From a virus: DNA of 20,505 nucleotides. Under the pieces are notes generated by a model. That model was not told the DNA's origin. It saw only the letters and a list, made by a program, of their open reading frames with translations, and did no database searches. The position numbers were made by a program, and so were the translations under genes. Below, piece after piece: positions 1,260 to 13,944 of the stretch. The stretch is taken from the IMG/VR virus record IMGVR_UViG_3300037891_000124, positions 1 through 20,505 of that record. One strand, written 5' to 3'. Each line of letters begins with the position of its first letter. The first letter of the stretch is position 1.

Positions 1260-3305
1260 ATGTCAGGATATATAGGCGCAATACCTACCCCACAAGCTAC
1301 ACAAAGTCGGGATGTATATACAGCCACATCAAATCAAACTACCTTTACTACCCAAGGCTACACGCCTAATTTCGTATCAGTGTATCTGAACGGGGTGCAT
1401 CTGGCACGGGCTGATTTTACAGCTTCCAATGGGTCAGACGTAGTGTTGGCTGTAGGGGCTGCAGCTAATGATGTAGTAGAGATTGTGTCTTTTGGTACAT
1501 TTCAATCGGCAGATGCATTGCCCTTAACTGGTGGTGCAGTTACTGGTGATGTAACTTTTGCAGATGGTGCAGATATTATTACTGCTTCAGCAGGTACATC
1601 TAACTTTCGTGCAGGTGTAAACGCAGGTAACTCTATTCAGTCTGGCGGTAATTTTAATACCGTTGTGGGCGATGAGGCAGGTACTGCTTTGACTACGGGT
1701 GATAACAATGTAGCCATTGGATTTGAAGCACTTAAAACTGAAGATGCTCACGGTACTAATACTGCAGTAGGGTATCAGGCTTTAAAAACACTTAATGCGG
1801 GGGCAGATGGTTTCAATGTTGCTGTTGGTTATCTTGCAGGAACAGCAGTCACAACAGGTACAAGTAATTGCTTGATAGGATCAGAGGCAGGCGATGCTAT
1901 TACTGACGGAAATACTAACGTAGCAGTTGGTAGTAGCAGTCTTACAACCAATCAACGTGGAGATAAAAATACGGCAGTAGGCTTTAAATCGCTGGAGAAT
2001 ATGAATCCTTCGGGTGATGTAGACACGTTTAACACGGCTGTAGGTAGTTTTGCAGGACAAGCAGTAACCACGGGCGTAGATAACACTTTAATCGGTAGTC
2101 TTGCAGGTGATGCACTTAATACAGGTGGTGGTAACACTGCTTTAGGTAAACAGGCTTTAAGTGCAGATACAAAAGGTGCTACAGCAGTGGCTATAGGCCA
2201 GCTTGCTTTAGGCGCACAAAACTTCACATCAGCTACTGATAACTACAATGTTGCAGTAGGTTTTAGTGCAGGAGTAGGAATCACCACGGGCGTAAACAAC
2301 ACGATTATTGGTGGTCTTGCTGGTGATGCTCTGACTGATGCTGATTTAAACGTAGCAGTTGGTAAAGGTGCATTAACTTCTGACACCTTAGGTAGTAACT
2401 CCACGGCAATAGGTTTTGCAGCATTAGAAGCACAAAACTTTACATCAGCCACAGATTCTCACAACACGGCTGTAGGAAGTGCAGCAGGAGCAGCAATCAC
2501 AACAGGTAGATTTAATGATTTATTTGGTAGTTTAGCAGGGGATTCTCTTACAGTTGGAGGTTCTAACGTAGCAGTAGGTCATGCCGCATTAAGTGCCGAC
2601 ACTAAAGGCAGTCAAAATGTAGCTGTAGGCACAGGTGCTTTAAATGCTCAAAACTTTACTTCAGCTACAGATTCTTTTAATACAGCAGTAGGCCGTTCCG
2701 CAGGAGTAGCAGTCACCACAGGTACAAAGAACACCTTTCTCGGTTCACTAGCAGGTGGTTCTGTAACCTCAGGTAGTAACAATTTGTTTTTGGGTAAAGA
2801 TGCAGGAATTACAGGTAGTCCCGGCGGTAATATCACTACAGCATCTAATGAGATAGGGTTAGGTGATGAAAATATATCCGCAGCTAACATTCAAGTTGAT
2901 TGGACTGTAGCCTCTGATCAACGTGACAAGACAGACTTTACTGCACTAGATTTAGGTTTAGACTTTGTTAAGGCACTAAACCCTGTAACGTACAAGTGGG
3001 ACAAACGTTCTAAATACGGTGACAAGTCTGCTGATAATTATGATTTAGATGCACAGACACCAGACGGCACACATAAAGAAGATTGGTTGGACATAGGCTT
3101 TAAAGCACAAGATGTTCAAGCTCTTGAAGAAGCTGCTGGATACACAACTGCTGCTAAGAAAAACCTTATAGTATCTACATCAGGTGATGGCAAGCAGATG
3201 GGTCTACAGTACAGCAAGTTTGTGCCAATCTTAGTCAAAGCCCTGCAAGAACAGAACGCTTTAATTGAAGCCTTAGCGGCCCGTATCACAGTCTTAGAAG
3301 GATAA
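1260..3305 (+). CDS. Repeat-rich tail fibre with C-terminal S74 chaperone domain
   Basis: The 681-residue fibre has three visible parts. Residues 1-85 form an N-terminal domain common in marine phage fibres (G-Y-I-G-x-x-P-x-P-Q-A-T-Q start, then Y-L-N-G-V-x-L). Residues 132 to about 530 are tandem beta-roll repeats built of N-x-A-x-G-x-x-A-type motifs, as in YadA/Hep-Hag adhesin heads; five units are spaced exactly 72 residues apart. Residues from about 552 form a Peptidase_S74 intramolecular chaperone, recognised by S552-D553-Q-R-x-K557 and the L-N-P-V-T-Y-K-W segment, and end in a leucine-zipper-like helix (about 655-680). In characterised fibres this domain drives trimerisation and then cuts itself off near the conserved Ser, using a Ser-Lys-type dyad. 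The ATG follows AAGGAAACAAA. Adhesion to the host surface is the inferred role. Confidence 0.85.
   Translation: MSGYIGAIPTPQATQSRDVYTATSNQTTFTTQGYTPNFVSVYLNGVHLARADFTASNGSDVVLAVGAAANDVVEIVSFGTFQSADALPLTGGAVTGDVTFADGADIITASAGTSNFRAGVNAGNSIQSGGNFNTVVGDEAGTALTTGDNNVAIGFEALKTEDAHGTNTAVGYQALKTLNAGADGFNVAVGYLAGTAVTTGTSNCLIGSEAGDAITDGNTNVAVGSSSLTTNQRGDKNTAVGFKSLENMNPSGDVDTFNTAVGSFAGQAVTTGVDNTLIGSLAGDALNTGGGNTALGKQALSADTKGATAVAIGQLALGAQNFTSATDNYNVAVGFSAGVGITTGVNNTIIGGLAGDALTDADLNVAVGKGALTSDTLGSNSTAIGFAALEAQNFTSATDSHNTAVGSAAGAAITTGRFNDLFGSLAGDSLTVGGSNVAVGHAALSADTKGSQNVAVGTGALNAQNFTSATDSFNTAVGRSAGVAVTTGTKNTFLGSLAGGSVTSGSNNLFLGKDAGITGSPGGNITTASNEIGLGDENISAANIQVDWTVASDQRDKTDFTALDLGLDFVKALNPVTYKWDKRSKYGDKSADNYDLDAQTPDGTHKEDWLDIGFKAQDVQALEEAAGYTTAAKKNLIVSTSGDGKQMGLQYSKFVPILVKALQEQNALIEALAARITVLEG
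1653..2840 (+). repeat. Tandem 216-bp repeats in the fibre gene
   Basis: Five units begin at 1812, 2028, 2244, 2460 and 2676, exactly 216 bp (72 codons) apart. A shorter 159-bp leading unit starts at 1653, and the last unit decays after about 2840. Each full unit encodes four beta-roll turns. The phrase A-Q-N-F-T-S-A-T-D recurs at the end of units 2, 3 and 4. Units are similar but not identical in DNA, so the duplication is not recent, yet no unit boundary has gained or lost a codon. Confidence 0.85.
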
Positions 3306-3560: not shown

Positions 3561-3815
3561 ATGGATATTAACTGGACAGTAGTAACAATAGTTGGTGCAT
3601 TATTAGCCCAAGGTGCTGCTATTGTCTGGGCAGTATCAGGCATGGTGTCAGACATCCAGTATAACAGAAGTGACATATCTGAAATGGAAAACAGCACAGC
3701 AAGACTAGCTGATGACATACATGAGAATGACGTAATGATTGCACGTATTGATGCTAACGTTACTGCAATTAAGGAAGCGTTGAACATAGTTGCTGCTAGT
3801 CACGCCAAGAGGTAA
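3561..3815 (+). CDS. Small single-span membrane protein, possible holin or spanin-like
   Basis: The protein has 84 residues. Residues about 5-28 are a single strong transmembrane segment with a short N-terminus. The remainder (about 35-80) is a charged helix with heptad-like spacing of Ile, Met, Leu and Val, probably a coiled coil (N-R-S-D-I-S-E-M-E-N, then A-R-I-D-A-N-V-T-A-I-K-E-A-L). A single-span protein of this size with a coiled-coil tail fits a small holin or an inner-membrane spanin subunit. It precedes two more envelope-type genes and lies a few kilobases upstream of a murein amidase. The ATG follows AGGATAAATAA, which overlaps the stop of the previous gene. The lysis role is inferred only from topology and position. 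Confidence 0.65.
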   Translation: MDINWTVVTIVGALLAQGAAIVWAVSGMVSDIQYNRSDISEMENSTARLADDIHENDVMIARIDANVTAIKEALNIVAASHAKR

Positions 3816-3820
3816 GACTA

Positions 3821-4300
3821 ATGATTGACCCCATCACAGCTTTTGCTGCAGCCAATGCAGCTTTCAAAGGGGTCAAGATGCTTGTAGGGGCTGGCAGAGA
3901 GATACAAGATGTATCACAGCAACTAGGGGCATGGTACGGTGCAGTAGCTGACATTACTAGGGCTGAGTCTCAACGTAAGAAACCTACATGGTTAGACAAG
4001 CAGACCCACGGCAGTGACAACATTGAACAAGAAGCAATGGACATTGTTGTTCGTAAGAAGACATTGCTTGAGAAAGAAAAAGAAATAAAGTTTATGTTAG
4101 ACTACAGGTTTGGTCTTGGCACATACGATGAAATGCTAGGTATGCGTAGGCAGATACGTAAGGAACGTGAAGAGACTGTGTATGCAGCAATGGAAGCTAA
4201 GAGACAGATGGCTAACAACGCAGCCATAGGTGGCCTATCATTACTAATCATTAGTGTATTAGGTGGAGGCATGTATTTAATAGCACTAGGAATTAGTTAA
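3821..4300 (+). CDS. C-terminally membrane-anchored protein of unknown function
   Basis: The 159-residue protein starts with an amphipathic helical region (M-I-D-P-I-T-A-F-A-A-A-N-A-A-F-K) followed by a long charged helix (about 55-132) rich in Lys, Glu, Arg and Met. It ends in one hydrophobic segment (about 134-157, with S-L-L-I-I-S-V-L-G-G-G), so it is probably tail-anchored with a large cytoplasmic helical domain. I associate the M-I-D-P-I-T-A-F-A-A-A start and this architecture with conserved hypothetical proteins of marine phages, but I know of no function for them. AGAGGTAAGACTA precedes the ATG. Its stop codon TAA overlaps the next ATG by one base, so translation of the two is likely coupled. 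Candidate roles are lysis control or virion-membrane interaction during DNA entry. Confidence 0.65.
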   Translation: MIDPITAFAAANAAFKGVKMLVGAGREIQDVSQQLGAWYGAVADITRAESQRKKPTWLDKQTHGSDNIEQEAMDIVVRKKTLLEKEKEIKFMLDYRFGLGTYDEMLGMRRQIRKEREETVYAAMEAKRQMANNAAIGGLSLLIISVLGGGMYLIALGIS

Positions 4301-4566
4301 TGATTAATCTTGTTGTGTTACCCCTTGTGTTAGCAGGGCTGTTAAGTAACCCTGAGTTTGTACAGTGTCACTTAGCAAAAAGAGTTAAGATACAGGGAGA
4401 AATGGTTTGCATTTACCGTGGACCTAATGGTACAATAGGCTACCACTACCCTATGTTTAAGTTTAGTGAGTGTCCTAAGACATACATGTGCAGGTACACA
4501 CCTAATGCCAAGAAGAAAGTAAGTGTACAAGATATACTAGATGGCCTAAAAGATGGCTTTGAATAA
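4300..4566 (+). CDS. Small exported protein with four cysteines
   Basis: The protein has 88 residues. Residues about 3-15 are hydrophobic (L-V-V-L-P-L-V-L-A-G-L-L) and resemble a short signal peptide. The mature part contains four cysteines (C23, C37, C58, C64) that could form two disulfides in the periplasm. There is no clear lipobox (the L-A-G run is not followed by Cys), so a lipoprotein is not supported, although C23 after a hydrophobic N-terminus recalls Rz1-like proteins. The start overlaps the stop of the upstream gene as TAATG. Together with the two preceding genes it forms a compact three-gene envelope cluster. The function is unknown; periplasmic location is the inference I hold most firmly. 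Confidence 0.6.
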   Translation: MINLVVLPLVLAGLLSNPEFVQCHLAKRVKIQGEMVCIYRGPNGTIGYHYPMFKFSECPKTYMCRYTPNAKKKVSVQDILDGLKDGFE

Positions 4567-4581
4567 GAGAAAGACTTAAGC

Positions 4582-6846
4582 ATGCAGATGATGACAGATA
4601 ACTTGCCCGGTGAAACACAGGATCAGGCAAATAAACGTATAGCATCTAGTCTGTCTTTAGAGCAGTTAAATGCACCAATGCCTGCAATGGGCTATCCACC
4701 GGGATATTTAGAAGCTTTGGCTGCTAGAAAAGCTCAACTAGATACCCCATTTGCGTCAACCCCCAGAGGCTTCACCGATCCTAATACAGCAGTGCAACCA
4801 GCAGTGCAACCAGCCGTTAATAAGGGTTATGACTCAAGGGCTAATGAAGCGGCATCTAAGATGTCTTTAGAGGATATTAGAGCTTACCAAGCTGGTGAAG
4901 TACCGGGGGCGTATCCACCTTACTTCAAAGAGGCTGTGACTGCTAGAAAAGCTCAACTAGAGGCTGCTGCAAATCCTAATGTACCTTTTACTACTGGTGG
5001 ACCTATCCCTCCTTTTTCACCTAAACCCGTAGGCGGTTCCAATATGACTCCAATGCAAGACAAACTAGACAAAATCAATCAAGAGCTTGCTGATCTGTAC
5101 GCTATGGATCAAAGTGATCCTGCTACGATTAAAGCTATTGCTGATAAGACTAAAGAGCAACAAGCTGCTGGTGCTGCAGCTATGACTGAGGGACAGCAGA
5201 ACCTTGTAAGTACTGCAGTTAAGTCACCTGAACAACTAGCAACACAAACCCCTGTATCCACAATAAATCCTAACACTGTAGGCACTGCTATTGCTCCCGG
5301 CCTTGGTGATGCAGGTGCTACAGGTGGGGCTACACCTACGATAACAGGTACAGGACAACAGGCTGTAACCCCTGACGCTATGACCCCTGCATCCGTACAA
5401 GCTACAGCAACGCAAGGAGCAGTAGATACTGCACTAGGTGGCGTAGACGCAGCGCAAGGTGCTGTATCAACTACAGTAGACGCTGCCACTAAAGACCCTA
5501 CCACAGTAGCTGGTACAGACCTTGATGTAGATCAGATAGCTGATGCTACACAGGTAGTTAAACCTGATGCACGTAAAGTTGAGACAGGTGAGCTACTAGA
5601 TGGCTCTGCCGTTAACATGGCTGCAGTCAAGGAAGCTACTGAGTTTGAAGCTGCACAAGCTGACCCATCTAAGCAAGCTACTGTAAAAGGCCAGCTAGAT
5701 GACTTGATGGATGACTTTGATGATGGTGCTACACCTGCATGGGCTGCAGGAGCCATGAGAGCCGCTACAGCAGCTATGGCTGCACGTGGGCTAGGCTCTA
5801 GTAGCATGGCAGGACAAGCCATTGTACAAGCTGCAATGGAATCAGCCTTACCTATCGCTCAACAAGATGCACAGACTACGGCTGCATTTGAGGCTGCTAA
5901 CTTAAGTAACCGCCAACAGACTGCCTTGTTTGCTGCACAACAACGTGCTGACTTTCTTAAGTTAGACTTCAATCAGGAGTTTCAATCACGTGTAGCTAAT
6001 TCAGCTAAGATCAGTGACATAGCTAATGTTAACTTTACTGCAGAACAACAGATTGCATTAGAGAATGCACGTATGGCTCAGACTGTAGACTTAACTAATC
6101 TTAACTCTAGGAACGCTAAGATCATGGCTAACGCTGCAGCTATGGCTAACATGGATATGGCTAACTTGAGTAATCAACAGCAAGCCAGAGTAGAGAACGC
6201 TAAGAGCTTCCTGCAGATGGACTTGACTAATCTAAATAATGCTCAACAGGTAGAAATCTTTAAGGCTAACTCAGTACAGCAAGCAATCCTTAGTGACGCT
6301 GCAGCAGACAATGCAGCTAAACAGTTTAACGCTTCTAGTGTTAATCAAACAAATCAATTCATGGCTGACTTAGAGTCCCGTACTTCTCAGTTTAACGCTG
6401 CACAAAGCAATGCTTTAGAGCAGTTTAACGTAGGTGAAGTAAACGCTATCTCTAAGTTTAATGAAGAACAGAACAACGCTAGAGAAGAGTTTAACACTAA
6501 GAATGCTTTAATCATAGCACAGGCTAATGCACAGTGGCGTCAAGCTACAACCACAACTAACACAGCCGCACAGAACGAGGCTAACATGCAGGACGCTAAA
6601 GCTATGAATGCGTTTACAGCTAGTACGCTAGACCAAGTTTGGCAAAGAGAGCGTGACTTGTTGAGCTATACTTGGCAGACAAGTAACAATGCTTTGGAAA
6701 GAATTAACAACGTTATTCTTGCTAACATACAAGCTACCTCTGCAGCTAATACTAATGCAGCTACAAATGCAGCTAATACAAAGTCAGCGGAGTCAAACAT
6801 GTGGGGTCAGATTGGTGCAGCAGTAGTAGGATTTGATTGGAGTTAA
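4582..6846 (+). CDS. Large helical-repeat virion protein (putative internal core protein)
   Basis: The 754-residue protein is rich in Ala, Gln, Asn and Thr. Residues about 21-56 and 91-126 are a duplicated motif (S-L-E-x-x, then Y-P-P-x-x, then A-R-K-A-Q-L). Residues about 180-350 are low-complexity Ala/Thr/Val/Pro and probably disordered. Residues about 385-430 are a small-residue helical region (A-A-M-A-A-R-G-L-G-S-S-S-M). From about 440 onward there is a long helix with 22-residue units starting at D503, D525 and D547, and then seven 11-residue units from Q581. There is one tryptophan near 650 and a short Gly-rich C-terminus. Position between tail and amidase genes, size and composition suggest an internal core or ejection protein. 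Three in-frame ATGs (4582, 4588, 4591) are possible starts. Confidence 0.7.
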   Translation: MQMMTDNLPGETQDQANKRIASSLSLEQLNAPMPAMGYPPGYLEALAARKAQLDTPFASTPRGFTDPNTAVQPAVQPAVNKGYDSRANEAASKMSLEDIRAYQAGEVPGAYPPYFKEAVTARKAQLEAAANPNVPFTTGGPIPPFSPKPVGGSNMTPMQDKLDKINQELADLYAMDQSDPATIKAIADKTKEQQAAGAAAMTEGQQNLVSTAVKSPEQLATQTPVSTINPNTVGTAIAPGLGDAGATGGATPTITGTGQQAVTPDAMTPASVQATATQGAVDTALGGVDAAQGAVSTTVDAATKDPTTVAGTDLDVDQIADATQVVKPDARKVETGELLDGSAVNMAAVKEATEFEAAQADPSKQATVKGQLDDLMDDFDDGATPAWAAGAMRAATAAMAARGLGSSSMAGQAIVQAAMESALPIAQQDAQTTAAFEAANLSNRQQTALFAAQQRADFLKLDFNQEFQSRVANSAKISDIANVNFTAEQQIALENARMAQTVDLTNLNSRNAKIMANAAAMANMDMANLSNQQQARVENAKSFLQMDLTNLNNAQQVEIFKANSVQQAILSDAAADNAAKQFNASSVNQTNQFMADLESRTSQFNAAQSNALEQFNVGEVNAISKFNEEQNNAREEFNTKNALIIAQANAQWRQATTTTNTAAQNEANMQDAKAMNAFTASTLDQVWQRERDLLSYTWQTSNNALERINNVILANIQATSAANTNAATNAANTKSAESNMWGQIGAAVVGFDWS
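4721..4961 (+). repeat. Dispersed duplication within the 754-residue gene
   Basis: The 20-mer CTGCTAGAAAAGCTCAACTA occurs at 4721-4740 and again at 4940-4959, encoding A-R-K-A-Q-L in both copies. It lies inside a longer, diverged duplication of about 35 codons (near 4645-4750 and 4855-4970), visible as S-L-E-x-x and Y-P-P-x-x at matching positions. It is an internal gene duplication, not a mobile element. Confidence 0.7.
6325..6553 (+). repeat. Hendecad (33-bp) repeats encoding a long coiled helix
   Basis: Residues 581-657 of the 754-residue protein can be written as seven units of exactly 11 residues, most beginning Q-F-N (Q581, Q592, Q603, Q614, then K625, E636, Q647). The codons CAGTTTAAC recur at several unit starts. 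The period of 11 matches hendecad coiled coils, and the upstream 22-residue units (6088-6285) are twice that period. Confidence 0.75.
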
Positions 6847-6848
6847 TA

Positions 6849-8201
6849 ATGGGATTTTTTAATAAAGAACTAAAAGAGCTATTTGATTTTAGCTCCAAAG
6901 AGCGTCCTAAAGTTGTAGCTGATGAGATACAAGCTGGTGTAGAAGAAGCTGGTAAAGGCAGGGGCTTGGGTGTTCAAACTAAGAAAAGAAAACAGCCTAA
7001 CTTCTCTTTAAGTGATGCAGGGCAGAACTTGTATAAGGATTCTTATGGGGCTTCTGAGGAAGCTTTAGCTAAACAAGAGCAAATTCGTAAGGACATTCAA
7101 AGCCAAAGTATTACTAATATTCTATCTGCTGTTATGAAAGATACTGAGAATGAAACTCAAAAGTATTTACCCAAAGGCGATACTTTAGGTGAGGCTACTT
7201 ATTTAACTAAAGAAGAACAAAAGCAGCGCACTATTACAACAGTAGGTTCTTTTTTAAAAGGGTCATATAAACCGTTAGAAGGCTCTGGCATTGTTATTGA
7301 CACTACTGTAGCCGATAAAATTAGGTCTGGAAATGAGCGACAAGTACTTGAAGTAAAGGACGGTAAGGTAGTTCAAGCAACAACAAAACCGGGCCAATTT
7401 AGTGATATGTATGGTCAAGGAGCTACATCACGGGCAGAAAATCAAGGCATAGGTTATGCAGGAGTAGTTGTACATCATACAGAACATACAGGGGCAGAGA
7501 AACATATACGTGGTGGTATGAATATAACCAGCTATGAAAAAGACGGTGAGACAAAACACCAACAAGTAGGCTACCACTTCTACATTGATAGGAAAGGCGT
7601 AGTACACCAAGGCGCACCTTTAGAAAAGCGTGTTAATCATGTAGGCGGTTTAGCTAGGTGGGCTGCAGGAGAGTATAAAAAAAGATATAAGAAAAAAGCA
7701 AAAGGTAATACCGATACCAAGGAGTATAAAGCAATAGAGACAGAAGCCTTAGAACTTATGAAAAAAGGCGACATCCTTACTAATGAAAATACCATAGCTA
7801 TAACTCTTTTAGGTTCTGTTAATGATGCAACCGCTGAACAACTAAAGTCATTTACATCACTATCTAAAGATATACATGAACAGACTAAAATTGGCTATGA
7901 TAAATTTGATACTCATGGTATGCTTCCTTATCAAGATAGAATGGCAACGGAAGGTGTACTAGCATTAAATCATATGTTAAAGAAATTAACTGGAAAAGAA
8001 CGTGCTGGCTATAAAGCTAGAACATTTAACTTCCAAGACCTAAAACCAAATGGCTTGGGTGGTAGAACAAAATCTTATCCTTTTGTATCTAAAGAGGATG
8101 TTTTAGCATTTCAAAGACAATATTCTGAATTAGTAAATGATGGCATTATGGGTCCAAAAACAATGGCAATGATGGAAAAAGTAGGATACTTTAAAAAATG
8201 A
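6849..8201 (+). CDS. N-acetylmuramoyl-L-alanine amidase with peptidoglycan-binding domain
   Basis: The 450-residue protein has a 190-residue N-terminal extension of unknown role, then an Amidase_2 (PGRP/T7 lysozyme-like) domain at about 200-375, then a PG_binding_1-like domain at about 403-448 (F-Q-R-Q-Y, then D-G-I-M-G-P-K-T). The amidase cleaves the bond between N-acetylmuramic acid and L-Ala. Zinc-site candidates are H209 or H210 (V-V-V-H-H-T), H356 (D-T-H-G) and E368 (A-T-E-G) in place of the usual Cys or Asp. Y-H-F-Y-I-D with V-H-Q-G follows the family core. ATG 6849 is chosen because GGAG lies 6 bases before it; a TTG at 6837 would overlap the upstream gene. Its place among virion genes and its extension suggest a virion-borne murein hydrolase, but it may serve as the endolysin. 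Confidence 0.85.
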   Translation: MGFFNKELKELFDFSSKERPKVVADEIQAGVEEAGKGRGLGVQTKKRKQPNFSLSDAGQNLYKDSYGASEEALAKQEQIRKDIQSQSITNILSAVMKDTENETQKYLPKGDTLGEATYLTKEEQKQRTITTVGSFLKGSYKPLEGSGIVIDTTVADKIRSGNERQVLEVKDGKVVQATTKPGQFSDMYGQGATSRAENQGIGYAGVVVHHTEHTGAEKHIRGGMNITSYEKDGETKHQQVGYHFYIDRKGVVHQGAPLEKRVNHVGGLARWAAGEYKKRYKKKAKGNTDTKEYKAIETEALELMKKGDILTNENTIAITLLGSVNDATAEQLKSFTSLSKDIHEQTKIGYDKFDTHGMLPYQDRMATEGVLALNHMLKKLTGKERAGYKARTFNFQDLKPNGLGGRTKSYPFVSKEDVLAFQRQYSELVNDGIMGPKTMAMMEKVGYFKK

Positions 8202-8782
8202 GTAGAGCATTAAACGGCCCAATTCCCGGCCAATCACTTACAGACGAGCCAAGCAACTACGCTTGGGAGCGTCCACCTGAGACTGCCGATCCTACCGAGG
8301 CACTTAGTATGCACCTTAAAAAGATGGCTGGCCCTAAGTTTATGGATAGTGCGCTTTACATGATGGAACTTGGTGTACCTGCAGATGTAATCACCAACAC
8401 TACTTTAACTATGGCTATAGGTAACGGTATTCACAGCGTTGATGTTGGACTTATGATTGCCCCTGCCATACATAAAGAGGTTGTATCTATAGCTGACATG
8501 GCTGGCATTGAATACGATGAGCATTTCCCAGAGGATGCAGAGAAAGAGCAAGAAGCTAAAGAAAAGCTTAAGACACTTGTTATATCCAAGATGAAACGCA
8601 ATCAACCTGAAGGCAAAGCTGAAATATCACAAACTATGGAGGCTATGACTAGCCCCCAGACAGAAGAGTTTGAGGATATGCAGGAGCAAGATGAGCCTAT
8701 GGATATGGCACAAGCAGAAGAACCACAGGAGCCACCTACACCAGAAGACATGGGCATGGGCTTAATGAGTAGGGGAGCATAA
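8198..8782 (+). CDS. Putative virion-associated protein with acidic Met/Pro-rich tail
   Basis: The 194-residue protein begins with a G-P-I-P-G-Q-S-L-T motif and W-E-R-P-P, a signature I associate with conserved structural-module proteins of marine phages. The central part (about 40-120) is a compact helical region with A-L-Y-M-M-E-L-G-V-P-A-D. The C-terminal 60 residues are strongly acidic and rich in Met, Gln and Pro (E-E-P-Q-E-P-P-T-P-E-D), probably disordered. Its ATG overlaps the amidase stop as ATGA, and the next gene begins 3 bases after its stop, so it is expressed with the internal virion genes. The acidic tail could be a scaffold or packaging contact. The precise role is unknown. Confidence 0.65.
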   Translation: MSRALNGPIPGQSLTDEPSNYAWERPPETADPTEALSMHLKKMAGPKFMDSALYMMELGVPADVITNTTLTMAIGNGIHSVDVGLMIAPAIHKEVVSIADMAGIEYDEHFPEDAEKEQEAKEKLKTLVISKMKRNQPEGKAEISQTMEAMTSPQTEEFEDMQEQDEPMDMAQAEEPQEPPTPEDMGMGLMSRGA

Positions 8783-8785
8783 CTC

Positions 8786-10348
8786 ATGGGTATTAATTTA
8801 AACGTCTTAAGTGCAGTAGCTGGTGCAGCAGAGCAATACACAAAGAATACAGGGGAGCTTAAAAAAGAGCTACGTGAGAATAAACGTAGGCAGCGTGATT
8901 GGTTAGCTACTTATGGTACTAAGGCTCTTAATGAAACTAAGCAACAGCAAGAGAGCGTACAGTCTGCTTTAGATGACTTAAAAGCACGTGGGTTAGATAC
9001 CCCAGATGCAATCCAGCTACTCCAAAAGCACGGCGTAGGTTCTGTGCTTGAGTTATCTAAATACGTAAAAGAGTATGAAATAGCTAATAATACAAAAGTA
9101 GACAAAGACCTTATGAATAAGCTATGGACTTCTGCAGATGACTTCACTACAACTGAGACTACCTTTGAGGCTGCTGTAGCTAAAGTATTTGGTGCATCTG
9201 CAGGGGCTGCAACTGCGCCTGTAATACAAGAGGCTGAAGATAGAAACTTCTTTGAGCAACTTAAGTATAACATGGGTGAGCGTTATGATGATGAGCTTGA
9301 GGACTTCTTAACTGATGCCTCTGAGGGTATCGGTGGTAAGTCCATTAGAGAACTAAGAGCTATGTCAGCGTCTTCACCTTCTATGCTTGGCACTGAAGGT
9401 TCTGCTGTGTTTGACAGGTCTGTTCTTAGGGGTAATGAGCCTTCTGCTGGCGAAGTTAGACTTTGGAAAAACACTACAAATATTATTGTACGAGAGACAC
9501 TTAAAAATCTTTCACCAGCAGACAGACAAGCAGTTGAAATGAGGGAGTCAAATTCAGATTCAGGCTTTAGTGTCCGTGACACAGATGATATATTCTTTGA
9601 TTTAGCTGATCCTGACAGTGTTTATTTTGAGGCATTTAGTGAGGCTACTAGAAAAGTACACGAACAAAATCCTTTCTCTGACAACAGGTCTGCTAGAGGT
9701 GCATATGGCGGTCAAGCTGCCCTAGATGCAATACTTAATCCACCAGAGCCACTTACACCAGAAGAGTTAGCAGAACAACTTGAGCAAGACCTTATAGATA
9801 ATAATCTAACAGGGGCTACTAGACCTGAAGATTTAGGTGAATCTACAGACGTACAAGTAGGTGAGTACTTTAGGGACAATAATAAAGACTTTGTTATATC
9901 AAATGGAGAGTTAATCGGGCGTCCAGAAGATGCACCCTTTGAGGAATCTAAAGTTGTAGAACTGCCCCCAACAGAACTGCCTGTAGAAGAAGGGACTTAC
10001 AATAGTGATCTAACTCTAAAAGCCCAACCTACTGTAGCCCCTGAAGGCGTACCTACACGTCCAGAGCCTACGTATAGAGGTGAGGAAAAGAAACTATTAG
10101 AGAGACCTAGAAACAAAAGAGCCATAGATGATTGGGATGATCAATATGGAGATAAGTACAACTACGATGGTACTTACAAAATAGTTAGACCTCAAGGCCC
10201 AAGACCTGAAGATATAAATAGCCGAGAGTATTATGAGTATGAGCTTTGGGATGCTACCTTCGGAGATACCCATGATCCTCGCACAGGATATCCTCTAATA
10301 GAAGGCTTAGATAAGACCCTCATTCCTAACTCAGAGGTTGCTGAATAA
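8786..10348 (+). CDS. Putative internal virion protein
   Basis: The 520-residue protein has no enzyme motif that I can find. Residues about 15-70 form a charged helix with coiled-coil character (K-K-E-L-R-E-N-K-R-R-Q-R-D-W). The middle (about 150-300) is mixed helical and acidic. The last 200 residues are rich in Pro, Glu and Asp with many aromatic residues (Y-E-Y-E-L-W-D, then G-D-K-Y-N-Y-D-G), suggesting an extended binding region. GGGGAG precedes the ATG by about 10 bases, and the stop TAA overlaps the next ATG by one base. In T7-like phages the genes just before the giant internal protein encode inner-core and ejection proteins (the gp14 and gp15 positions). I assign this role by position and size, not by sequence homology. 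Confidence 0.65.
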   Translation: MGINLNVLSAVAGAAEQYTKNTGELKKELRENKRRQRDWLATYGTKALNETKQQQESVQSALDDLKARGLDTPDAIQLLQKHGVGSVLELSKYVKEYEIANNTKVDKDLMNKLWTSADDFTTTETTFEAAVAKVFGASAGAATAPVIQEAEDRNFFEQLKYNMGERYDDELEDFLTDASEGIGGKSIRELRAMSASSPSMLGTEGSAVFDRSVLRGNEPSAGEVRLWKNTTNIIVRETLKNLSPADRQAVEMRESNSDSGFSVRDTDDIFFDLADPDSVYFEAFSEATRKVHEQNPFSDNRSARGAYGGQAALDAILNPPEPLTPEELAEQLEQDLIDNNLTGATRPEDLGESTDVQVGEYFRDNNKDFVISNGELIGRPEDAPFEESKVVELPPTELPVEEGTYNSDLTLKAQPTVAPEGVPTRPEPTYRGEEKKLLERPRNKRAIDDWDDQYGDKYNYDGTYKIVRPQGPRPEDINSREYYEYELWDATFGDTHDPRTGYPLIEGLDKTLIPNSEVAE

Positions 10349-13300
10349 TGAGAGTGCTTGACGCAAAGTTTATAAACCCAAGCCAACAAGAGCCTGACTT
10401 CATGACCTACACAGGTGGTGAGAAGGATACGTTTGGCATTAGTGATCTCACAGAGGATCACAACTACAACGTCATTGAAGCGCAGATGAAAGCTCGCTTT
10501 GGTATGTCTGAGAAGTCTCACGACAGGCAAGAAGTCGTAGATAAGTGGATTAATTACAACAGAAAGTTTAACGTAGGTAACACCCTTAGTGTACTAGGGG
10601 AAGCCAGCTACTTAAGCAAAGCTGACGATGAAGAGAAAGTAAAAGCTCTCAACTCGTACAAACTCTTTGATAACATGAAGGGTTCCTTTAGTGGTGGCAC
10701 TGTTGGTCAAAAGCTAGACAGTGTGTATGACTACGGTATGGCTTTGATTGTAGACCCTGTTAACTTGGTCAGCTTTGGTGCTGGTAAGTTAGCTACAGGT
10801 GGTGCTTCAAAGGTTGCTGCTGAAGCTGCAAAAGAAGCTTTAACAATATCTGCTAATCAAATAATAAAGAAGGCAGGACAAGAAGGTGCTAAACGCTCTA
10901 TGCTTAAGCCAGCCATAAAAGCTGAGATAGGTAGAGCGCGTCAACGTGTGCTTAGTAAGTCACTAAAGGGTGAGGCTGTAGATGAGCTTGAAGAAGGTGT
11001 TGTAAAGGGTGCGCTTGAAAAAGCTGCAACTAAAGAGCTTAGAGTTGGCTTTGGTGTTGAGACTGTTAGTGCTATAGGTATTGATGCAGTACAGCAAAAT
11101 ATGACTTACCGTGAGGTAGGCTTTCAAGATGAGTTTAGTTATTTAAACTCTGGCTTAATTGCTGGCGGCGGTTTCTTTGGCTATGGGCTAGTTAAAACAT
11201 TAGGTATGTTTTCTGGTACAGACCTACCCAAGTCTGTAGTCTTAGATACATATGATGCTGCTGTAACTGCAGAAGCTGCAGCTATAAAGATGGCAAAGCA
11301 AGAGGGCATAGAAAAGAATAAAGAAGTATTAGAAAAACTTAGAGCAGACACTGCAGAGGCAAAACAAGCTAGAGATAAAATTATAGCCTCTATTAACGCT
11401 AGTAAGGAGGCCTCTGAAAAGTGGGCTAAGATGTTAGCGGAAGGTAGAAAGACTGCAAAGGGTTTAAGAGAAGACGGAGTTACCAGTAGTCCAGATTCAG
11501 TAGAAGGCATTAGTGCTTTTCTAAATGGTAATAAAAAAGGTGAAAACCAGTTTGACGGTATGAGAGATATATTTGAGCAAAATGGTATTAAGCTTGTTGG
11601 TGAAGATGATGTATGGCGAGGTGTAGTACACTTTGTTGCTGATACAGCCAAGAACGCACCTGAACCCATTAAAAAAGAAATACAGTCTTTGTATGAAAAT
11701 ACTATAAAAGCTTTAGATGAAGGATTTGATGGCGTTAATACTTTAGATGAAGCTATGCCTTTGATGGCACAGAAGTTCAGTTACGCTGGTAGCTTAATGC
11801 AGACAGCCTCAATGCTGGGCCGAGATATTAATAACGTTAAAAAGGTTAAGGCTGCACTAGGTGACGGTAAAAGCGTTACACCAGAGGAACTACTTGAGGG
11901 CGTTATGGACCCTAGTACTGGTACAGCTAAGAACGCTGAAAAAGGAAAGCGTGGTTTGTTTGGACGCTCACAGGATAACCTTATTCGTGTGCTTGTAACT
12001 CATCCCGGTACTACTGCGCTTAACTTGTTAGGATGGGTACATGCCTCTGGTATTCAATCTGTTTCTGACATACTTAGGGGTGCGCTTTATGGTGGCGCAT
12101 GGGCTGCAAAAGGTTTAACAGGTCAAGCAGATGCTGTTGAATATGCAACAAAAAGTAAACTTATGTTTGACTTGCAAAAACAAAAGATGCGAAACCTTCT
12201 TAACCCTTTTGCTACACAAGAAGAAACACTTAACTTCCTGTCTCTTAACCCTAAGATGCGTAATGAGCTATTTCGTTACGTATCAGGTGGCGTAGACAGT
12301 AAAGATGTTTTAAAGAGCTTAGACTTAGAGTTTGATGACCTTGAAAAAGAGGGTGCTGGTGAAAAAATAATTAACACCTTTCAAACCATGTATGGGGTTA
12401 AAGCTGTAGACATTTTGACTAAGACACAGGAGTTTATGTATAACATAGACAAACAGATACGGCTTAAGTATAACGTAAGCTACAATGAATTTATGTCAGC
12501 TAGGGATGCCCAAGGCGCACCCGTACATTGGAATAAGATGCGCTCTGATGACTTCATTAAAATACAAGCTACTGCTGTAGATGATGCATTACGTAATGTG
12601 TTTGCTAAGTCTTTTAGTGGCGGTGACTTTAAAAGAGACCGTAACATTGTAGAAATGGTAGCCAAGACTATAGAAGACGCACGTAAGTATCCTATCCTTG
12701 GTGCTATGGTTCCCTTTGGGCAGTTTTTTAATAACACTATTGCGTTTATGGCTGATTACAGCCCTATTAGCCTTGTACATAGTAAGTTTGCTAAGAACAG
12801 TAGAGACCCTATGGAAATGGTAACTAAGATGGGTGTAGGATTAACTGCTGTATACGCAGCATCTGAGTTTGAAATGAAGAACATGGAAGAAGGCTTGGCT
12901 TGGCATGAGGAACGTGACGATGATGGACAAGTAAGGTCACGCCTATATGACTTCCCATTTAGCTATTGGAAAGGTGTAGGACGCATTGTGGCGCACCTTA
13001 GACGCGATGGTGAAGTACCTGTTGAGCTTATTGATGATGTTACCACTACGTTTGGTACAGCAAACCTTACACGATCTTTAGGTGAAGCAACATCATCTGC
13101 ATTTGAAACTGTTCAAGATGCTCTTTCAGGAGACTACCCTGAACTAAAAGAAGGTTTGCAGAAAGCCTTTGGTAGCATAGGTTCTATGTATATATCTGGA
13201 TTTAGTAGGCCACTAGACCCTCTTAATCAAATTACAGCGTTTGCTATGGGTGACGCCTATAATGAAACAGATCGTAACATTGGTAGTAAGTTCATCAACA

Positions 13301-13944
13301 ACTCCACACGTTACGTTGAGAGTATCTTTGACGGCTTTGATCAGCTTACAGGCATACCTACTGCTGCAGGTACTGCACTAGGATTAGACATGACAGAAAC
13401 ACCTGCTAGGGAAAGACCTTTGGAAGAAAGACCTAGAGGCGTAGCTATTGGGCGTATCTTTGGTTACAGGGACTCACCTGCACCACAGGCCATTGATAAG
13501 ATGTTTGCTGATATAGGTAAGCCTAAGTGGAAGACAGAAGTCAAGTCGGCTGTGCCAGAGGCCAACAATACGCTTAACAGGGTTATAACTAAATACTTAG
13601 AAGCAGAAGCAGCTAAGGTTGTCTATGGTGATAAATGGAAGAACTCATCATTAGATCAAAAGAAATCCGATCAAAAACTAGCGGTATCTAGGGCTAAAAA
13701 AAGAGCTTTGGCTGAGTTGTACAGATCAGGCAACCCTACAGATAAACGTCATCGTGAAATGTTTAAGCTTAGTAGGCGAGGGTCAGGTGTAACTATGTCT
13801 GACATGGAGGAAGCTTTAGAGGAGATTGGCATAGATAAGAAAGTAGAAGACTTATCATACGATCAGCTACGCCTACTAAGGCGTTTTCTAAAGATGGAGA
13901 AGCGGGAACTTAAACGTTCTTCCAGAGAATCACTTAGAGGTTAA
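10348..13944 (+). CDS. Giant internal virion protein (T7 gp16-like position)
   Basis: At 1198 residues this is the largest gene of the window and the last of the structural operon, as is the inner-core/ejectosome protein gp16 in T7-like phages. Residues about 115-155 include a Gly-rich hydrophobic stretch (V-D-P-V-N-L-V-S-F-G-A-G-K-L), with another near 265-290 (L-I-A-G-G-G-F-F-G-Y-G). Residues about 300-372 are a long charged coiled coil. The C-terminal 100 residues are highly basic, with R-A-K-K-R and a K-R-E-L-K-R-S-S-R ending, suitable for nucleic-acid or capsid contact. I see no lytic transglycosylase motif like that of T7 gp16; a separate amidase gene upstream may supply that activity. 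The stop codon is 4 bases before the A-run of the terminator. Confidence 0.7.
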   Translation: MRVLDAKFINPSQQEPDFMTYTGGEKDTFGISDLTEDHNYNVIEAQMKARFGMSEKSHDRQEVVDKWINYNRKFNVGNTLSVLGEASYLSKADDEEKVKALNSYKLFDNMKGSFSGGTVGQKLDSVYDYGMALIVDPVNLVSFGAGKLATGGASKVAAEAAKEALTISANQIIKKAGQEGAKRSMLKPAIKAEIGRARQRVLSKSLKGEAVDELEEGVVKGALEKAATKELRVGFGVETVSAIGIDAVQQNMTYREVGFQDEFSYLNSGLIAGGGFFGYGLVKTLGMFSGTDLPKSVVLDTYDAAVTAEAAAIKMAKQEGIEKNKEVLEKLRADTAEAKQARDKIIASINASKEASEKWAKMLAEGRKTAKGLREDGVTSSPDSVEGISAFLNGNKKGENQFDGMRDIFEQNGIKLVGEDDVWRGVVHFVADTAKNAPEPIKKEIQSLYENTIKALDEGFDGVNTLDEAMPLMAQKFSYAGSLMQTASMLGRDINNVKKVKAALGDGKSVTPEELLEGVMDPSTGTAKNAEKGKRGLFGRSQDNLIRVLVTHPGTTALNLLGWVHASGIQSVSDILRGALYGGAWAAKGLTGQADAVEYATKSKLMFDLQKQKMRNLLNPFATQEETLNFLSLNPKMRNELFRYVSGGVDSKDVLKSLDLEFDDLEKEGAGEKIINTFQTMYGVKAVDILTKTQEFMYNIDKQIRLKYNVSYNEFMSARDAQGAPVHWNKMRSDDFIKIQATAVDDALRNVFAKSFSGGDFKRDRNIVEMVAKTIEDARKYPILGAMVPFGQFFNNTIAFMADYSPISLVHSKFAKNSRDPMEMVTKMGVGLTAVYAASEFEMKNMEEGLAWHEERDDDGQVRSRLYDFPFSYWKGVGRIVAHLRRDGEVPVELIDDVTTTFGTANLTRSLGEATSSAFETVQDALSGDYPELKEGLQKAFGSIGSMYISGFSRPLDPLNQITAFAMGDAYNETDRNIGSKFINNSTRYVESIFDGFDQLTGIPTAAGTALGLDMTETPARERPLEERPRGVAIGRIFGYRDSPAPQAIDKMFADIGKPKWKTEVKSAVPEANNTLNRVITKYLEAEAAKVVYGDKWKNSSLDQKKSDQKLAVSRAKKRALAELYRSGNPTDKRHREMFKLSRRGSGVTMSDMEEALEEIGIDKKVEDLSYDQLRLLRRFLKMEKRELKRSSRESLRG

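Follow-up and report, generated by a model that had tools for sequence, protein, structure and literature searches.

A predicted helical rod protein of HMO-2011-type podoviruses that varies in length by steps of 11 residues and probably takes part in DNA ejection

The 20,505 bases analysed here (the window) are the entire IMG/VR record IMGVR_UViG_3300037891_000124, whose source is an HMO-2011-type podovirus, a group described as short-tailed in the available text of PMC9038755. The open reading frame (ORF) at 4582-6846 encodes a protein of 754 amino acids containing a long repetitive rod. In the family of this protein, rod length varied ninefold and only by multiples of 11 residues. We favour, with fair though far from complete confidence, the reading that the protein is a helical rod and belongs, as a structural component, to the machinery by which these podoviruses eject their DNA. 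A total of 26 records of a phage collection matched the ORF, every one with an identity below 60%. These were Puniceispirillum phage HMO-2011 (gp25), Roseobacter phages of the CRP series, pelagiphages, Vibrio phage CHOED, Aeromonas phages MQM1 and 1233, Pseudoalteromonas Slicky01, rhizobial phages and one spring-water genome. The parts of the protein are as follows.

4582-6846, plus strand: ORF of the rod protein, 754 amino acids (ORF list and relatives)
4582-5571, plus strand: N-terminal part, residues 1-330, of variable length among relatives
5752-5892, plus strand: conserved segment before the rod, residues 391-437, containing RGLGSSSMAGQAIVQAAMESALPIA; served as N-terminal anchor
5851-6537, plus strand: rod, P424 to W652, with an 11-residue phase without break (periodicity, alignments, anchors)
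5899-6219, plus strand: zone of 22-residue units, N440-M546, with a consensus around NLSNxQQxALxNAQ
6220-6321, plus strand: junction, D547-K580, with the last 22-residue unit at its start
6322-6537, plus strand: zone of 11-residue units (QFN zone), Q581-W652, with F at 582, 593, 604, 615, 626 and 637
6538-6702, plus strand: conserved C-terminal helical segment after the rod, residues 653-707 (alignment, AlphaFold2)

Repeat phase and rod length

Three anchors were mapped at the level of residues. P424 lies in unique sequence ahead of the rod, F582 opens the QFN zone and W652 closes it. All three were present in 247 ORFs; 238 of these differed from one another within the rod, and the window is one of that number (46 identical ORFs, 23 without an anchor and 9 identical over the rod were left out). 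These members were found among the matches listed, mostly in metagenome contigs, and 238 is a lower bound for the family. In all 238, the lengths from P424 to F582 and from F582 to W652 were offset from those of the window by a multiple of 11. The former fell into nineteen classes (-110 to +836) and the latter into seven (-11 to +55), with complete rods of 118 to 1086 residues. Since the members share descent, 238 does not equal a number of independent events; counting length classes instead (nineteen and seven) is fairer, although these too are non-independent. Three members with a deletion of one or two residues upstream of the rod showed a difference of -66 between the first two anchors in the residue-level mapping. 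Furthermore, a slip of the middle anchor inside the repeats cannot produce the result for the total length, because P424 and W652 sit in conserved unique sequence. The flanks served as a control: the residue number at which P424 falls and the length beyond W652 scattered over all classes modulo 11. Thus, a loss of the phase in relatives, an outcome contemplated in a preliminary description of this sequence, did not occur, and the unit numbers of relatives varied by whole 11-residue steps alone. Among 18 named records, 17 had all anchors and followed the rule of 11 without exception (12 of them are also among the 238), CRP-212 being the only one in which the first anchor was unrecognisable. The rods of these 17 records comprised 151-338 residues, in genomes of 52.7-68.7 kb, and those of pelagiphages 162 to 316. 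Moreover, a Shewanella sp. scaffold (L132, 7407-8858) encodes a protein of 484 amino acids that shares the anchor RGLxSSSxG...ALPIAQQDAQ and has no lag-11 signal behind it (z 0.4), from which the anchor segment may be older or wider in distribution than the rod.

Within the window, the units of 22 residues that had been described at D503, D525 and D547 (nucleotides 6088, 6154 and 6220) were confirmed in spacing and coordinates. The seven units of 11 residues from Q581 (nucleotide 6322), described as mostly starting with QFN, were also present, with F at the second position in six of them, whereas the exact start was found in three, the other four reading QFM, KFN, EFN and QAN. The repeat itself, placed at 6088-6553, proved real and larger, as the phase starts 79 residues earlier, at about P424 (nucleotide 5851), and ends at W652 (nucleotide 6537). 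As originally given, the two series of units were in frames one residue apart; the 11-residue phase is nevertheless continuous across them, the distance from D547 to F582 being 35 residues in 35 of 35 aligned members (one of which, L018, is incomplete and stops ahead of the last anchor). The periodicity analysis of residues 441-656 placed lag 22 first (z 8.0), followed by lags 44, 11, 55 and 33 (z 6.0 to 3.7), and in 2000 shuffles, scanned over lags of 2 to 60, a z of 8.0 was never attained. Tandem Repeats Finder detected no tandem repeat at the DNA level between 5700 and 6700, which argues for an old repeat maintained at the protein level.

Across family members, the zone of 22-residue units ranged from absent to more than 40 units. 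The strongest lag in the 41 arrays of at least 300 residues was 110, followed by 220, which corresponds to a 110-residue super-repeat, and the eleven array-length classes from +66 upward belonged to only two classes modulo 110 (0 and 66). Judging from these sequences, long arrays appear to grow by blocks of 330 base pairs. Block duplication of this kind is what a neutral tandem expansion would leave, in which unit multiples arise from unequal recombination alone and answer no structural demand. Such an origin seems to us very improbable, given that indels other than multiples of 11 were absent from the 238 distinct rods although both flanks vary freely, that proline is excluded from the rods and that the rod of the window has no DNA repeat.

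Rods longer than 260 residues often followed a basic N-terminus, the net charge of the first 40 residues reaching at least +5 in 39 out of 62, compared with 2 out of 89 short rods; such N-termini of the long forms would suit contact with DNA. Giant rod proteins with strongly basic N-termini were found in L123, L231, L230 and L228, with up to 2020 amino acids (L231). In the window, the N-terminal part carries two copies of a motif of about 35 residues, YPPxYxEAxxARKAQL (at about 22-54 and 91-125), and exceeded a predicted local distance difference test score (pLDDT) of 80 in short helices only in the full-length AlphaFold2 model. One or both copies of the motif are missing in several close relatives whose start lies further downstream.

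Predicted helical nature of the rod

Only 3 prolines were found in 68,850 rod residues, 236 of the 238 rods having none, while proline made up 6.9% of the N-terminal linker. Glycine accounted for 1% of the rods, lysine plus arginine for 6.7%, aspartate plus glutamate for 9.0% and asparagine plus glutamine for 30%. AlphaFold2 was run twice, both times yielding single-chain models, and strands were absent in either run. In the full-length run (the window and 19 relatives), the rod was helical with a pLDDT of 37-75 and a predicted template modelling score (pTM) of 0.20, the helices spanning residues 409-458, 465-482, 487-501, 510-551 and 556-676. The run on a short form (60 sequences) reached a mean pLDDT of 70.5 and a pTM of 0.31, with helices at 60-146, 151-262 and 266-307, of which the first two constitute the rod, and a weak spot at 145-148, where the QFN zone begins. 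A continuous alpha-helical rod is therefore well supported as a predicted structure, because proline is nearly absent and AlphaFold2 returned helix only. A non-helical prediction, which would have spoken against the preliminary description, was not obtained, the models giving helix without strands at modest confidence.

Concerning the kind of helix, the two zones differed. In the QFN zone, the hydrophobic period of 3.66 (11/3) led, with a power of 7.8 against a shuffle maximum of 1.5, and folding on 11 positions placed F, L/N/W and I/V in one seam, with Asn (about 80%) alongside and Gln elsewhere. In the 22-residue zone, the leading period was 11/4 (2.75; power 8.2 vs. 2.0), 11/5 (2.2) was also ahead and 11/3 was weak. 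The helical wheel of the latter zone had hydrophobic and Ala positions on two sides, with two-fold peaks near 39 and 219 degrees (p 0.22), a Q/S/T peak near 311 degrees (p 0.067), and two-fold charge peaks near 136 (large) and 316 degrees (smaller), with a p of 0.006 uncorrected for 32 tests. Hydrophobic positions on two sides of the wheel together with a Q/S/T peak would be in keeping with a barrel, in which each helix is flanked by two others, a point that we do not press. Column permutation revealed no significant hydrophobic face in either zone (p 0.09 to 0.66). Moreover, a single hydrophobic seam of period 11/3 along the whole rod fails, since that period led in the QFN zone only (p 0.09 and 0.66). 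A canonical one-seam hendecad coiled coil is thus not supported for the rod. The hendecad coiled coil of the preliminary description stands in so far as an unbroken 11-residue phase runs through a helix (238 of 238 members; predicted helix, with proline excluded) and the QFN zone has the period 3.66, and falls short in that 11/4 and 11/5 lead the 22-residue zone and no hydrophobic face reached significance.

Two other folds were considered and disfavoured. An alpha-solenoid of 22-residue helices does not agree with the odd multiples of 11 found between P424 and F582 in 27 of the 238 members, nor with the 110-residue block, which equals five units and would flip the hairpin stack. A beta-solenoid, raised by the periods of 2.2-2.75 in the 22-residue zone, is disfavoured by the proline and glycine content and by AlphaFold2. 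The 22-residue zone is the less certain part of the rod as to fold.

Lipid-binding amphipathic helices of 11-residue repeats are known from apolipoproteins and synuclein, and the rod might in the same style lie on a membrane, as its 11-residue period and the strong hydrophobic period of 3.66 in the QFN zone would allow. With so few charges, so much asparagine and glutamine and no single hydrophobic face in the 22-residue zone, this idea carries very little weight with us.

Gene context and proposed role

According to the reading that we favour, a variable N-terminal arm, probably largely disordered, would lead into one continuous alpha-helical rod of 11-residue, three-turn steps. Because 11 residues make three turns, steps can be gained or lost without turning one end of the rod relative to the other. 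The phase being kept while the length is free, the two ends must therefore stay in rotational register, and the distance between them is free to vary. Such a rotational constraint is a need of a side-by-side helical assembly and not of a disordered linker. Several copies would pack laterally into a bundle or tube; the protein would be carried in the virion, leave the capsid and help the DNA across the envelope. Its partners would be the neighbouring wall hydrolase, or a basic, possibly membrane-active protein, together with the proteins of 194, 520 and 1198 amino acids encoded downstream. The virion and ejection role is suggested by gene context, in which the following genes take part.

6837-8201, plus strand: next gene after the rod gene, a conserved N-terminal part of about 131 amino acids plus Amidase_2 (relatives, Pfam)
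8198-8782, plus strand: partner gene downstream of the rod gene, 194 amino acids, starting with PIPGQSLTDxPxNxPWExPP
8786-10348, plus strand: cassette gene of 520 amino acids, in what would be the position of a gp15/gp20-type ejection protein
10348-13944, plus strand: cassette gene of 1198 amino acids, in what would be the position of a gp16-type ejection protein

In the named records, the rod gene was followed mostly by one variable gene, then by the 194-amino-acid type and by the medium and large genes. This cassette comes after the tail genes in the HMO-2011, CRP, HTVC, CHOED, MQM1, phiM6 and RHph records; a late small-medium-large cassette, as for the T7 and P22 ejection proteins, was thus observed. 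Where 2.5 kb or more of sequence was available downstream of the rod gene, a gene of the 194-amino-acid type was present there in 188 of 189 loci, L119 being the exception; 49 loci were too short for this count. Besides its conserved start, this protein has a conserved GLM tail at the C-terminus, and neither a family nor a PDB entry matched it.

The slot directly behind the rod gene was variable. The N-terminal 131 or so amino acids of the gene at 6837-8201 are kept in relatives of about 285-304 amino acids, in which the C-terminal part is swapped, and the protein of L002 aligns along its entire length. Elsewhere the slot held an endolysin (CRP-207) or, in many relatives, a basic amphipathic protein of the MGFFKKIFKGVGKVFKKIGRGIKK... 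type. Among post-rod ORFs of at least 50 amino acids, chosen mechanically at 212 loci, 102 had a net charge of at least +5 in the first 45 residues (background: 13% of 1143 other ORFs, over the first 40 residues), and 38 contained a 19-residue window above 1.6 on the Kyte-Doolittle scale. Comparison of 11 post-rod genes with PHROGs gave weak matches to tape-measure families for L231, L234, L223 and CRP-2 (1.3e-6 to 8e-3), which may stem from composition and are taken as a hint, as well as one 'tail protein', one endolysin and one 'membrane protein', the rest matching nothing or families of unknown function. In L321 (pelagiphage HTVC115P), the gene directly behind the rod gene (3566-4015) is annotated as a toxin-activating lysine-acyltransferase.

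With regard to the remainder of the window, the gene at 1260-3305 encodes a protein resembling a tail spike, in which NTAVG/AGxxITTG repeats are numerous and an S74 (endosialidase chaperone) domain forms the C-terminus. Three small ORFs at 3561-4566 (84, 159 and 88 amino acids) have one hydrophobic segment apiece and are possible holin- or spanin-type lysis genes, an idea for which no family evidence was found. Replication genes lie on the minus strand in the right part.

A gene context of this kind would also be compatible with a scaffold or core strut inside the capsid that remains there and forms no conduit. The basic N-termini of long forms and the independence of rod length from the host agree with a strut as well. 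We nonetheless hold it to be improbable, as an envelope crossing is suggested by the genes next door, which encode wall hydrolases or basic proteins that are possibly membrane-active, and a straight rod of 160 nm would presumably not fit unbent into a podovirus head.

That figure comes from the rise of a straight alpha-helix, 1.5 Å per residue, by which the rod of the window would measure about 34 nm and the longest one (1086 residues) about 160 nm. Among phages of the same host strain, FZCC0040, the rod comprised 217 residues in CRP-207 and 162 in CRP-3 and CRP-235, so that the host envelope alone does not determine its length; a ruler of the envelope was rejected on this ground. The channel or strut in the ejection apparatus suggested by the preliminary description fits the gene context, while the rods of 162 and 217 residues on one strain oppose a simple envelope-spanning length.

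Several results weigh against a rod that helps the DNA across the envelope. A rod of about 160 nm far exceeds a periplasm, and rods of unequal length occur in phages that infect the same host strain. The two-seam layout of a barrel was not significant for hydrophobic residues (two-fold term, p 0.12 to 0.29), and charge, for which alone p fell below 0.01, had a peak on each of the polar faces, including the supposed lumen face. The full-length model is also of low confidence (pLDDT of the rod 37-75, pTM 0.20). Sequence and profile searches of the PDB gave no match to the rod protein, nor did Foldseek against the PDB at E<=0.001, and the comparison of profiles with T7 gp13-16, P22 gp26, gp14, gp7, gp20 and gp16 and phiX174 H revealed no link, the targets being single sequences and the sensitivity consequently limited. 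Finally, the open-licence literature yielded no proteomics placing the rod protein in a virion.

Other searches gave few leads. PHROGs, Pfam and NCBIfam offered no convincing hit to the rod protein or to the three partners encoded downstream of it, the lowest E-value (0.0015) linking the medium gene of HMO-2011 to phrog_9762, of unknown function. Foldseek against BFVD gave six matches at E<=0.001, none of them functionally named (one was 'DUF4214 domain-containing'). The VIA structural comparison returned generic helical matches with Z up to 7.6; the N4 tail complex (9lc0, Z 5.2) and the Pa223 periplasmic tunnel (9nxo, Z 3.0) were listed without standing above other helical rows. In the open-licence literature, no paper was found on the repeat of the rod gene; the available parts of PMC13320782, PMC10386132, PMC10410586 and PMC11440229 did not concern the rod protein, and structural terms had no match in PMC8528129.

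Known systems and what the rod may mean

One of the closest likenesses in plan is that to phiX174 H (PDB 4JPP), a DNA-translocating tube with hendecads and a lumen lined by N, Q and R according to the available text of PMC7354561. Both are long Gln-rich alpha-helices with 11-residue repeats, H carrying DNA through the envelope, and the wheel of the 22-residue zone may resemble that of the H hendecads, whose amide side chains line the lumen in the same source. Among ten known ejection and tail proteins tested at lag 11, H alone exceeded a z of 2.2 (4.6); the nine T7 and P22 proteins stayed at or below it, with lag 22 reaching 3.4 (P22 gp16) and 3.3 (T7 gp16) as the best of many windows. In contrast to the rod, with its roughly 11 to 99 steps, H has three hendecads followed by heptads, as far as described in PMC7354561. 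H also belongs to a single-stranded DNA microvirus and is a demonstrated decamer, whereas the models of the rod protein are single chains, and HHalign against H gave a probability of 0.4% at most for three alignments of the rod protein.

Tape-measure proteins of 11-residue units (Belcaid et al. 2011, PMC3271669, as far as available) share with the rod a variable number of units, F/W markers and growth by duplication. The rod of the window has six consecutive F at a spacing of 11. Seven F/W at this spacing, the published pattern 1, were found in 5 of the 238 members and six in 62, while the run never exceeded two in 74. A run of at least five also occurred in 27 of 1269 other ORFs of at least 200 amino acids, 25 of them with a family anchor, in an imperfect control that contains family members outside the list of distinct rods; of 1194 ORFs lacking every family anchor, 2 had such a run. 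Unlike tape measures of long tails, the rod belongs to phages that PMC9038755, in its available parts, describes as short-tailed, and the tape-measure profiles of PHROGs and Pfam had no match to the rod protein of the window or to six relatives. That long forms might be tape measures of long-tailed relatives was rejected, as the HMO-2011 tail hub was carried by 17 of 20 long-form records, and DNA_pol_A likewise by 17 (18 of the 20 have rods of 426-1086 residues and two are outside the list of distinct rods). The tail hub protein itself had matches to 'amidase' families and weaker ones to 'head closure Hc3' families. PhageMin_Tail was found in 0 of these 20 records, a weak negative as tape-measure families are diverse (the control was positive in 7 of 14 genomes).

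Regarding the T7 gp14-15-16 and P22/Sf6 gp7-20-16 ejection proteins, the likeness lies in a late cassette of three genes of small, medium and large size (available text of PMC8954989), and the differences in an extra rod gene ahead of the trio and in the lack of profile similarity. According to the available text of PMC4755594, Sf6 gp12 assembles as a decamer for part of which a coiled coil is predicted, and the H tube can be fitted to its stem. Overall, the rod protein is like phiX174 H or the 11-unit tape measures in plan, yet did not qualify for either group in the comparisons made here.

A needle of the tail or a fibre shaft could likewise vary in unit number, as a parallel coiled coil of low order outside the tail with the N-terminal arm distal. 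In its favour, rod length is highly variable, up to 1086 residues, tail-fibre-like genes lie upstream of the rod gene, the P22 needle gene is located two genes ahead of the ejection genes 7, 20 and 16, and needle and tape-measure proteins have been linked in work on RcGTA (PMC7296036, in the part available). Set against these points are the absence of any Pfam family above the cut-off in ten long N-terminal parts, a conserved C-terminal end and a low-complexity arm that are atypical of fibres, the basic N-termini of 39 of 62 long forms, which would suit DNA contact, and the lack of a profile link to P22 gp26, a single-sequence target. We regard the needle or shaft as unlikely, though still worth bearing in mind.

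An ejection rod might be carried one step further, in an idea that we put forward as speculative and rather doubtful, to a tape measure without a tail. In long-tailed phages, a single tape-measure protein can combine what would here be encoded by adjacent genes, namely a rod, a membrane-active segment and a peptidoglycan hydrolase. After ejection, a rod growing in blocks of 110 residues with an inviolable 11-residue phase might form a helical tube of up to about 160 nm, compared with 17 nm for the tube of phiX174 H.

The ninefold variation in length, exclusively in steps of 11 residues, is a clean natural experiment that separates a needed phase from a dispensable length. With it, the manner in which such podoviruses cross the envelope becomes testable in cultured isolates.

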